Positions 32,462 to 36,885 of a stretch of 64,000 nt of DNA are shown here, in pieces. Position 1 is the stretch's first letter, and every line of letters begins with the position of its first letter. The stretch is taken from the NCBI GenBank assembly GCA_020073165.1, contig JAIQFP010000008.1, positions 62,001 through 126,000 on the forward strand. The letters are read 5' to 3'. The DNA comes from Terriglobia bacterium (GTDB taxonomy: Bacteria > Acidobacteriota > Terriglobia > Terriglobales > Acidobacteriaceae). The notes beneath the pieces were generated by a model that worked only from the letters and a program-made list of their open reading frames with translations, did not search any database and was not told where the DNA came from. The translations under genes and the position numbers were made by a program.

Positions 32462-32522
32462 AGCTGCGCGCATGGAATCAGCAGCTCACGTCTACAACGG
32501 AGACACCAAGGAACCTCCACCA

Positions 32523-33896
32523 ATGATCGTCATGAAATTCGGCGGCACTTCGGTGGAGGACGCCCAGGCGATTACGCGCGCCGCTGGCATCGTTAAAGCC
32601 CGCCTGCCGCAAAAGCCAGTGGTAGTGGTTAGTGCTATAGCCAAAGTGACTGACCAGTTGCTGGCCATGGCCCGTGCCGCCGGGGCCGGAGACCGCGACA
32701 CCGCCCTCAAAGTTTCCCGCGGCTTGCGCGAGCGCCACTACAACGTTGCCGGCGAACTGCTGGGCACGGGTATCTTCACCCAGTTTCACAGTGAACTGGA
32801 AGCTGACTTCGATGCCCTGGATGAACTGCTGCGCGGCATTGCCGCAGTGGGCGAATTGACGCCACGCACCTCCGATCACGTGGCTTCCTACGGCGAACTG
32901 CTGTCCAGCAAGATCGTTACAGCGGCATTCTCCGCACGCGGGCTCGACGCTAGCATGGTGGACTCACGCCAGTGCATCGTGACCGACTCCACCCACATGC
33001 GTGCCGCACCCTTGTTCGAGGACACGAACCAACGCCTGCAGTCCACGCTGCCGCCGCTGCTGGCTGACAATCGCGTGCCCGTCATGGGCGGCTTCATCGG
33101 CGCCACCAAGGCAGGGGTGACCACGACCATCGGACGCGGCGGCTCGGATTTCTCCGCCGCCATCGTGGGCGCAGGCCTCGGCGCCGAGCGCATCGAAATC
33201 TGGACCGACGTGGATGGCATGCTGACCACCGACCCCAACCTGTGCCCGGAGGCCAAACGCATCAAAGTCATCAGCTTTGACGAAGCGGCGGAACTGGCCT
33301 ACTTCGGCGCCAGAGTGCTGCACCCCGCCACCGTGCTCCCAGCGGTGCAGAAGAATATCCCGGTGTACATCTTGAATTCCCGCAATCCGAGTTGCGAAGG
33401 AACTCGGATCACCACCCGCGCCCCCCACTGCCGGAACATTTTCAAGGCTATTGCCGTCAAGAAGCGAATCACCATCGTGGACGTGGCCGCGCCCCGCATG
33501 CTGCTGGCCCACGGCTTTCTGAAAGCCATCTTTGAGGCCTTTGACCGCCACCGCGTACCCGTGGACGTAGTATCCACATCCGAAGTGAGCGTATCGCTCA
33601 CGGTAGACTCCAACGAATCCATTCCCGCACTCGCGGCCGATCTGGCCAAGCTGGCGGATGTAAAGTATGAGGGTCGCAAGGCTATCGTCTGCCTGGTAGG
33701 AGATAATCTGCGGGAGACACCCGGAGTCGCCGGCCGCGTGTTCGCCGAGCTGGCCGATGTAAAAATTCGCATGATTTCGCAGGGCGCATCGGAAATCAAT
33801 CTGACGTTCGTGATCGAAGAAGATGCCGTGCCCGGAGTAGTGCAGCGGCTGCATAAGACGTTTTTCTCGGACCTGGATCCGGAAGTGTTCGCGTAG
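32523..33896 (+). CDS. lysC: Aspartate kinase
   Basis: A 457-residue aspartokinase making aspartyl-4-phosphate. KFGGTSVEDA near the N-terminus, GRGGSDFSAA in the nucleotide-binding lobe and two C-terminal ACT segments (FDRHRVPVDVVSTSEVSVS and VKIRMISQGASEINLTFVI) are seen. It is monofunctional, with no homoserine dehydrogenase domain, and probably feedback-sensitive through the ACT pair. It starts 61 bp after asd, too short for a lysine riboswitch. Confidence 0.95.
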   Translation: MIVMKFGGTSVEDAQAITRAAGIVKARLPQKPVVVVSAIAKVTDQLLAMARAAGAGDRDTALKVSRGLRERHYNVAGELLGTGIFTQFHSELEADFDALDELLRGIAAVGELTPRTSDHVASYGELLSSKIVTAAFSARGLDASMVDSRQCIVTDSTHMRAAPLFEDTNQRLQSTLPPLLADNRVPVMGGFIGATKAGVTTTIGRGGSDFSAAIVGAGLGAERIEIWTDVDGMLTTDPNLCPEAKRIKVISFDEAAELAYFGARVLHPATVLPAVQKNIPVYILNSRNPSCEGTRITTRAPHCRNIFKAIAVKKRITIVDVAAPRMLLAHGFLKAIFEAFDRHRVPVDVVSTSEVSVSLTVDSNESIPALAADLAKLADVKYEGRKAIVCLVGDNLRETPGVAGRVFAELADVKIRMISQGASEINLTFVIEEDAVPGVVQRLHKTFFSDLDPEVFA

Positions 33897-34023: not shown

Positions 34024-34704
34024 ATGAACATCCTAGTCCTGGGCCGCGGCAAGACCGGATCGCTGGTGGCAGACGTCGCCCGCAAGCGTGGCCACTCGGT
34101 TAGTGTCATCCACGCGGCAGAGAATCCGCAGGGCAAAGCACTGACTGCCGCAAAACTTGCGGACGTCGACGTCGTCATTGATTTCACCACCCCCGCAGCC
34201 GTGCTCCCTAACATTGAGGCCTGCGTCCGCGCCAATAAGAATATGGTGGTCGGCACCACCGGCTGGTATGAAGACGTCCCGAAGGTCCGGAGAATGGTCG
34301 AAACCAGCGGCACCGGCTTCCTGTACGCCGCCAATTTCTCCGTCGGCATAAACCTTTTTTTCGACGTCGCCCGCACCGCCGCCGTGGCCTTGCAACATCA
34401 GTACTTCGGCCAGATTTTTGAGCGTCATCATGCCCAGAAGAAAGATGCCCCATCCGGCACCGCCGTCAAGCTTCAGCAAGCGGTAAAAGAGGCCTGTGGC
34501 ATGGAACTGGAAATCACTTCGTTTCGCGAAGGTGACGTGGTCGGCATGCACGAACTGGTGCTGGATTCGCCCAACGACACCATTTACCTCTGCCATGACG
34601 CCAAGTCGCGCCGAGGCTTTGCCGAAGGCGCAGTACGCGCCGCCGAGTGGCTGGCAGGCAAGAAGGGATTCTTCGATTTCAAGGATGTTTGGAAGGAGCT
34701 GTAG
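34024..34704 (+). CDS. dapB: 4-hydroxy-tetrahydrodipicolinate reductase
   Basis: A 226-residue DapB reducing the DapA product with NAD(P)H. The N-terminal loop is LGRGKTGSL, and the active segment is ERHHAQKKDAPSGTA with the His-His and the Lys expected. The protein is shorter than the ~265 residues common in proteobacteria but matches short forms. Its leader contains the GCAAAG inverted repeat. Confidence 0.92.
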   Translation: MNILVLGRGKTGSLVADVARKRGHSVSVIHAAENPQGKALTAAKLADVDVVIDFTTPAAVLPNIEACVRANKNMVVGTTGWYEDVPKVRRMVETSGTGFLYAANFSVGINLFFDVARTAAVALQHQYFGQIFERHHAQKKDAPSGTAVKLQQAVKEACGMELEITSFREGDVVGMHELVLDSPNDTIYLCHDAKSRRGFAEGAVRAAEWLAGKKGFFDFKDVWKEL

Positions 34705-34827: not shown

Positions 34828-35955
34828 ATGCAACTCCGTGGATGTGGCACCGCTCTTGTAACTCCCTTTCATCAGGACGGCTCTATCGACGAGGCCGCCC
34901 TGCGCAACCTGGTCGCGTGGCAGGTGGAGTCGGGAATTGGTTTCCTGGTTCCCTGCGGCACCACCGGCGAAACGCCCACCCTTTCACATGACGAGTGGCT
35001 GCAGGTCATCGACATCACCGTCGAAGTCGTGGCCGGGCGCGTGCCAATCCTGGCCGGCGCTACCTCCAACTCCACGCATGATGCCGTGGAGAAAGCCAAG
35101 GAGGTTGCGACCCGTCCGGGCGTGAACGCGATCCTGACTGCTTCGCCCTACTACAACAAGCCCACCCAGGAAGGACAGTACCGCCATTTCCGCGCCATTG
35201 CCGAAGCGGTCGACAAGCCGCTGATCCTCTACAACGTGCCGGGACGCACCGGCGCCAACATTGAACCGGCCACTCTGGCCCGGTTGGCGGAGCTCCCGAA
35301 CATCGCAGGCGTGAAAGAAGCTAGCGGCAACATGGCCCAGATCGCCGAGGTCTGCAACGTGGTGCCCGAGCACTTCCTGGTCTTCTCCGGAGACGATGCC
35401 ATCACCCTGCCGGTGATTGCGCTCGGCGGAGTCGGAATCATTTCGGTAGCGTCCAACGAAATCCCGCACGAAATGGCGGAAATGACCCGGGCCGCACTGA
35501 ATAACGATTGGGACACGGCACGGCGCATTCACCGCAAGTATCTCGCGTTGATGCAGGCCAACTTCATCGAGTCCAACCCGCTGCCGGTGAAAGCGGTGCT
35601 GGCCATGATGGGCAAGATCGAAGAAGCGTACCGCCTGCCCCTGTTGCCCATGCGGCGTGACACCCGCTCCCGTCTGCAGAAAGTCGTGACCGAAGCCGGA
35701 CTGGTGACCAAGCCCGTGGCCCCGGCAGCGGAAGTGGTTGACTTCTACATTTACGAGAACTGGCTCGCCGGACCGCACAAGATCGTCGTGCACCGCTCCA
35801 CCTGCGGGCAATGCAACCACGGCAAAGGCCGCCCCGCAGGCCACGACGCCAACCACGCCCGCTGGCACGGCCCATACACGACGCTTCCGGAAGCCCGCCA
35901 GGCCGCCCATGACATGACCAACGTGCTGATCCGCAGCGAGTGCAAGTGCGTCTAG
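34828..35955 (+). CDS. dapA: 4-hydroxy-tetrahydrodipicolinate synthase with extra C-terminal Cys-rich domain
   Basis: 375 residues; the usual DapA is ~290-300. Residues 1-298 are a complete TIM-barrel DapA condensing pyruvate with aspartate semialdehyde: CGTTGE (~43-48), Tyr135 in LYNVPGRTG and Schiff-base Lys163 in GVKEAS. Residues ~301-375 form an added domain with VHRSTCGQCNHGKG and a terminal SECKCV (Cys326, Cys329, Cys372, Cys374), which looks able to bind a metal. I recall similar small CxxC-HGKG domains as stand-alone or fused modules, but know no function. The ATG at 34828 begins the family's MQLRGCGTALVTPF; an in-frame TTG six codons upstream is possible. The reading frame is continuous across the junction. 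Confidence 0.93.
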   Translation: MQLRGCGTALVTPFHQDGSIDEAALRNLVAWQVESGIGFLVPCGTTGETPTLSHDEWLQVIDITVEVVAGRVPILAGATSNSTHDAVEKAKEVATRPGVNAILTASPYYNKPTQEGQYRHFRAIAEAVDKPLILYNVPGRTGANIEPATLARLAELPNIAGVKEASGNMAQIAEVCNVVPEHFLVFSGDDAITLPVIALGGVGIISVASNEIPHEMAEMTRAALNNDWDTARRIHRKYLALMQANFIESNPLPVKAVLAMMGKIEEAYRLPLLPMRRDTRSRLQKVVTEAGLVTKPVAPAAEVVDFYIYENWLAGPHKIVVHRSTCGQCNHGKGRPAGHDANHARWHGPYTTLPEARQAAHDMTNVLIRSECKCV

Positions 35956-36054: not shown

Positions 36055-36885
36055 ATGCATCCCCTGCAGCCTGCCATCGAGCGCCTCGCCTCCCTCGGCG
36101 AGGTGGAGCGCAATCCCGAAGCGCGCCAGACCTTTTTCGCCTTCCGCGATGAGCTTACCCAGGGCAAAATCCGCGCGGCCGAAAGGATCAACGGCCAGTG
36201 GGTGGTCAACACTTGGGTGAAGCAGGGCATCCTGTTGGGATTCCGCCTGGGCGAACTGGCCGAGATGGGCGATGCGGCGCTTCCTTTTGTTGATAAAGAC
36301 ACCTTCCCCGCCCGCCACTTCACAGTTGCCGACCGGGTGCGCGTCGTGCCCGGCGGCTCTTCGGTACGCACCGGCGCGTACGTCGCGCCCTCAGTCATCT
36401 GCATGCCGCCCATGTTCATCAACGTGGGCGCATACGTGGACGAAGGCACTATGGTGGACTCGCACGCGCTCGTCGGCTCCTGTGCCCAGATAGGCAAACG
36501 CGTCCACTTGAGCGCTGCGGCGCAGATCGGAGGTGTTCTCGAACCGATCAACGCCGCGCCCGTAATCATCGAAGACGACGTCCTGGTTGGCGGCAACTGT
36601 GGCATCTACGAAGGTACGCTGGTGCGGGCCAAGGCGGTTCTGGGAGCGGGGACGATCCTGACCCGGTCCACGCCACTCTACGACATCGTCCGCGGGCAGG
36701 TGTGCCGGGCGACGGAGGAGAAATCACTCGAAGTCCCCGAGAATGCCGTCGTCGTGCCCGGGTCGCGCGCCGTGAAAAAAGGCCAAGCCGGAGAGTGGAA
36801 CCTGTCGCTCTACACTCCGGTAATTGTGAAATATCGCGACGAGAAAACCGACCGCAGCATTGAACTGGAAGATTGGCTGCGTTGA
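36055..36885 (+). CDS. dapD: 2,3,4,5-tetrahydropyridine-2,6-dicarboxylate N-succinyltransferase
   Basis: A 276-residue acyltransferase that succinylates tetrahydrodipicolinate. An alpha-helical N-terminal domain ([20 protein letters not shown]) precedes a left-handed beta-helix of hexapeptide repeats ([28 protein letters not shown]). Its presence means this organism uses the succinylase branch of the DAP pathway. It completes the asd-lysC-dapB-dapA-dapD cluster; dapC, dapE and dapF are not in the window. Confidence 0.94.

Follow-up and report, generated by a model that had tools for sequence, protein, structure and literature searches.

The window, a 64,000-nucleotide stretch of Terriglobia DNA, contains an asd-lysC-dapB-dapA-dapD cluster. 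In it, lysC (32472..33896, + strand) encodes an aspartokinase with ACT domains (Pfam AA_kinase and ACT_9), dapB (34024..34704, +) encodes dihydrodipicolinate reductase (Pfam DapB_N and DapB_C) and lies before dapA, and the gene after dapA (36055..36885, +) is dapD-like, encoding a tetrahydrodipicolinate N-succinyltransferase with Pfam THDPS_N_2 and hexapeptide repeats. The dapA gene (34828..35955, +) begins with an ATG at 34828, terminates with a stop codon ending at 35955, and encodes a 4-hydroxy-tetrahydrodipicolinate synthase of 375 amino acids with an additional C-terminal domain. DapA catalyses the first step dedicated to making lysine and the cell-wall precursor DAP, and is a well-studied enzyme and drug or herbicide target; its known control is through lysine bound at the tight-dimer interface.

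The product scores 345.6 bits against the TIGR00674 dapA equivalog, above the curated cut-off of 206.15, and matches Pfam DHDPS (PF00701) with an E-value of 4e-91, although this match spans residues 3-289 only. Residues 1-298 (34828..35721, +) form a full DapA, their limit being given by the Pfam span and by the tail-less DapAs of the same family, which end near residue 298-300 where readable. Aligned to E. coli DapA, the window protein has all of T44, T45, Y107, Y133, R138 and K161 (E. coli numbering), and the same six catalytic residues are kept in 75 of 75 tailed DapA sequences; since these are intact, the tailed enzyme is probably active and, judged by its sequence, catalytically ordinary.

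What distinguishes the window DapA from its tail-less relatives is a 71-residue, Cys-rich C-terminal domain (residues 305-375; 35740..35952, +), delimited by its fused relatives, a structure model and the lack of a family match, and joined to the barrel by a linker of approximately residues 297-304 (35716..35739, +). The original prediction described a full DapA running in frame to about residue 298 and then into an extra tail, with which the gene, the Pfam span and the TIGR00674 score all agree, and the motifs it listed (CGQCNHGKGRP, RWHGPYTTLPEARQAA and a terminal CKC, followed by V) are present as described. It placed the tail at 35725-35955; the Cys-rich tail is indeed there, but 35725 falls within the linker and the domain proper begins at 35740. 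The landmarks of the domain are Cys326, Cys329, Cys372 and Cys374, His322, and a WHGP motif at 346-349.

The association of DapA and tail is a true fusion, and is neither a sequencing error nor private to the window genome; both refuting conditions set by the original prediction thus fail. Scanning 84,980 species genomes located the tail at 44 loci of other assemblies, all of them titled Acidobacteria or Terriglobia, at 64-94% tail identity and in frame with DapA wherever the contig was long enough to read. Out of 398 genomes sampled from the same family, 116 matched a profile of the tail, and removal of ten weak or non-DapA matches left a DapA-type tail in about 106 of the 398, a count in which loci that were not fetched were assessed from score and frame length alone. 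Samples of approximately 300 and 400 genomes from the phylum gave convincing matches (E <= 0.001) in this family alone; genomes of other phyla were covered by a genome-contig scan with the window tail as a single sequence, which returned only Acidobacteria. Within the window's own genome there is no other convincing copy, the next-best match having an E-value of 0.12. Pairwise Nei-Gojobori dN/dS was 0.115 in the tail and 0.057 in the barrel, and the 25 codons that precede the tail (the linker) gave 0.325; these values are descriptive, since the pairs lack independence and synonymous sites approach saturation. On these sequence comparisons, the tail is under purifying selection. Among 49 distinct DapA tails, 48 retain all four Cys, the sole exception being a change of C to Y. 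An internal start giving a separate tail protein was considered and rejected, as the linker has no conserved start codon. That a sequencing frameshift had merged dapA with a separate small gene, for which we found no supporting point, was rejected given the identical in-frame join in 44 other assemblies, the purifying selection on the tail and the lack of a conserved start within the linker.

Each of 30 genomes without a DapA tail has one strong DapA ortholog, and no remnant of the tail was detected by motif downstream of tail-less dapA genes. On a tree of DapA from which the tail was omitted, tail state must change twice. The main tailed clade comprises 42 rows (SH-aLRT 98), and a second tailed group, the pair G300 and G304, lies beside G121 and G073; supports around this fork are 82-92, and both a single gain with losses and two separate gains fit. 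The linker is variable in sequence and short in most members, but in G300 and G304 (loci L104 and L105) it is longer by about 100 residues and has a high content of Pro, Ala and Glu, with the domain retained. The G304 DapA (L105:935-2365) has, besides its longer linker, Tyr where the second Cys would be, and so could show, as a natural variant, whether that ligand is required.

AlphaFold2 modelled the tail alone (30 sequences) with pLDDT 90.4 and pTM 0.80, predicting, in a numbering where query residue 1 is protein residue 298, a strand at 9-14, a strand at 21-26, a strand at 47-53, a helix at 56-65 and a strand at 71-74, with one Cys pair after strand 2 and the other after strand 4. The full-length run (pTM 0.74) gave the same elements at 306-371 and a pLDDT below 50 at linker residues 297-300, which is what a domain folding by itself on a flexible tether should give. 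Hence, the tail is predicted with confidence to form a small fold separate from the barrel.

This fold apparently has no name in the libraries searched, in keeping with the original description of a small CxxC module that could not be named. Residues 305-375 matched no family in Pfam, NCBIfam, PHROGs or the PDB sequences. Over 30 tail members the best E-values were 0.099 in Pfam and 0.078 in NCBIfam, neither significant; the best in PHROGs was 0.0093, for one tail member, with the window tail itself unmatched, and PDB sequences gave nothing. Foldseek searches with the tail model were likewise without significant match (best E 2.1 in the PDB and 0.31 in BFVD). Scattered, low-probability Foldseek matches to the GIY-YIG fold were set aside, and the idea of an Ada-like zinc domain found no support in the same searches. 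A search of one literature library found no paper on a fusion of DapA with a Cys-rich tail.

More distant relatives were sought in plasmid, phage and viral collections, and in these and in genomes of the family the domain proved to occur without DapA. Three standalone YENW...CxxC...WHGP proteins of about 70 residues (L101, L099 and L063), also unnamed in the libraries used, share the motifs of the DapA tails in the same order, and a profile-profile comparison of tails with standalone forms gave a probability of 99%. The first, in G408, another genome of the family, is a 72-residue protein (MDFYVYQNW...CRHC...WHGP...CPFC) ending in CxxC, in contrast to the CxC of the DapA tails, and the DapA of that genome is tail-less. 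The second, from an IMG/VR contig, is of similar size to L101 and shows 46% identity over 57 residues. In the sister lineage G121, whose own DapA has no tail, a predicted membrane protein (L106:3057-3929) encoded after a PilX-like gene has the domain at its N-terminus; this domain shows 32% identity across its full length, with the SEC(K/R)CV end included, and is succeeded by a basic stretch, one transmembrane-like segment and another domain. These standalone and membrane-protein relatives indicate that the domain is mobile rather than an outgrowth of DapA and, on sequence grounds, that it is a module which DapA has recruited.

The settings of these relatives are varied. The L101 domain (L101:1574-2234) immediately follows a PIN-domain (VapC-like) gene, with a recA-like gene upstream. 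On an IMG/VR contig (L142:523-7511) a standalone domain is flanked by a large primase-like protein bearing a CHC2-type zinc motif and by a 993-residue protein with a P-loop (GEPGGGKTTLL), which may be an NTPase belonging to a defence or mobile element. The L063 copy (L063:2492-2632), on Bradyrhizobium plasmid p186_1, is unannotated, interrupted by a stop and near an integrase gene. Both of two genomes of genus g213 (L100:1710-2288 and L102, - strand, approximately 1810-2170) encode a small protein containing a divergent version of the domain (LYAYEDRQ..HRHKLTIH.S.C..CNAG.GN...KWYGPF), and the genes around it are conserved. For these two and for L103, a weak relative without most of the four Cys, homology is judged from profile matches, at 7e-14 to 5e-5 per genome.

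The explanation we favour, which has an even chance of being correct, is that an otherwise ordinary DapA carries a flexibly linked, autonomous domain serving as a zinc-stabilised docking or regulatory module, and not as part of catalysis. Under this proposal one Terriglobia lineage of soil Acidobacteria would have added the small domain to DapA through a flexible linker; Cys326, Cys329, Cys372 and Cys374 would bind a single zinc ion at the core of the domain, which would be displayed on each subunit of the DapA tetramer and would bind a partner there. The arrangement of the four Cys in a CxxC and a CxC pair suggests a structural zinc site, four conserved potential ligands (Cys or His) being present as in small zinc-binding domains, and in one standalone relative the second pair is a CxxC as well; metal binding by the tail is therefore plausible from its sequence. 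Zinc is not strictly needed across the domain family, as indicated by the Tyr in G304 and by the loss of most Cys in L103. The free length of the linker and the occurrence of the domain without DapA suggest docking over a fixed coupling to the barrel. Points against the favoured explanation are that the neighbouring dapB, where readable, does not differ in type between tailed and tail-less genomes and that Foldseek returned no solved relative.

The tail might instead be an intramolecular regulator, sensing metal or redox state (zinc limitation, or thiol oxidation at CxxC and CxC) and changing DapA activity directly. Four near-invariant Cys, strong conservation of the tail and the fact that, in the genomes seen, the committed enzyme is the one member of the branch to be fused all accord with this, but a flexible linker varying by some 100 residues speaks against a fixed coupling to the barrel, and the C-to-Y variant retains the rest of the domain; we consider it unlikely. 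Rather unlikely, too, is a tail that merely stabilises, solubilises or helps oligomerise the enzyme, with neither partner nor signal: a small predicted fold at the C-terminus, restricted to the DapA of one lineage and dispensable to tail-less relatives, would suit such a role, but the YENW, WHGP and LIRSECKC motifs are conserved beyond the apparent need of a mere stabiliser and linker length is free. That the tail is a mobile, unnamed sensor or adaptor tying the entry step of DAP and lysine synthesis to metal or redox state, or to a membrane or envelope site, is distinctly doubtful, the envelope version drawing on the same domain in the membrane protein of the sister lineage. A selected, lineage-wide C-terminal domain would represent a different way to control or place the committed DapA step. 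Furthermore, an unnamed small domain family gains a well-understood host enzyme, through which its function becomes testable by simple assays.

Lysine feedback through the tail, as the original prediction entertained, is a very improbable function, and nothing links the tail to lysine. His or Glu at E. coli DapA position 56 marks lysine sensitivity, and Lys or Arg have been named as markers of insensitivity (PMC5109050). The window DapA has Trp at this position, outside both marker sets, as do 75 of 75 tailed DapAs; position 84 is mostly Asp, and no Rfam riboswitch occurs in the 64-kb window at the gathering threshold, all of which could be read as a tail conferring lysine (or DAP) feedback in place of the canonical allosteric site. 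However, 23 of 26 tail-less DapAs have the same Trp, so the state of position 56 does not track the tail, and the idea that the tail compensates for a lost canonical site was rejected. The ACT domains of LysC make that enzyme the likely site of classical feedback, which, with the independence of Trp from the tail, leaves lysine sensing by the tail unsupported; relatives of the domain also sit in proteins without known ties to lysine. An altered DapB was considered as a tail partner and rejected, since readable tailed and tail-less relatives all have the short form of DapB, with the same GRGKTG motif. The window DapB (34024-34704) has only 226 residues, and a GRGKTG nucleotide motif replaces the usual glycine-rich one.
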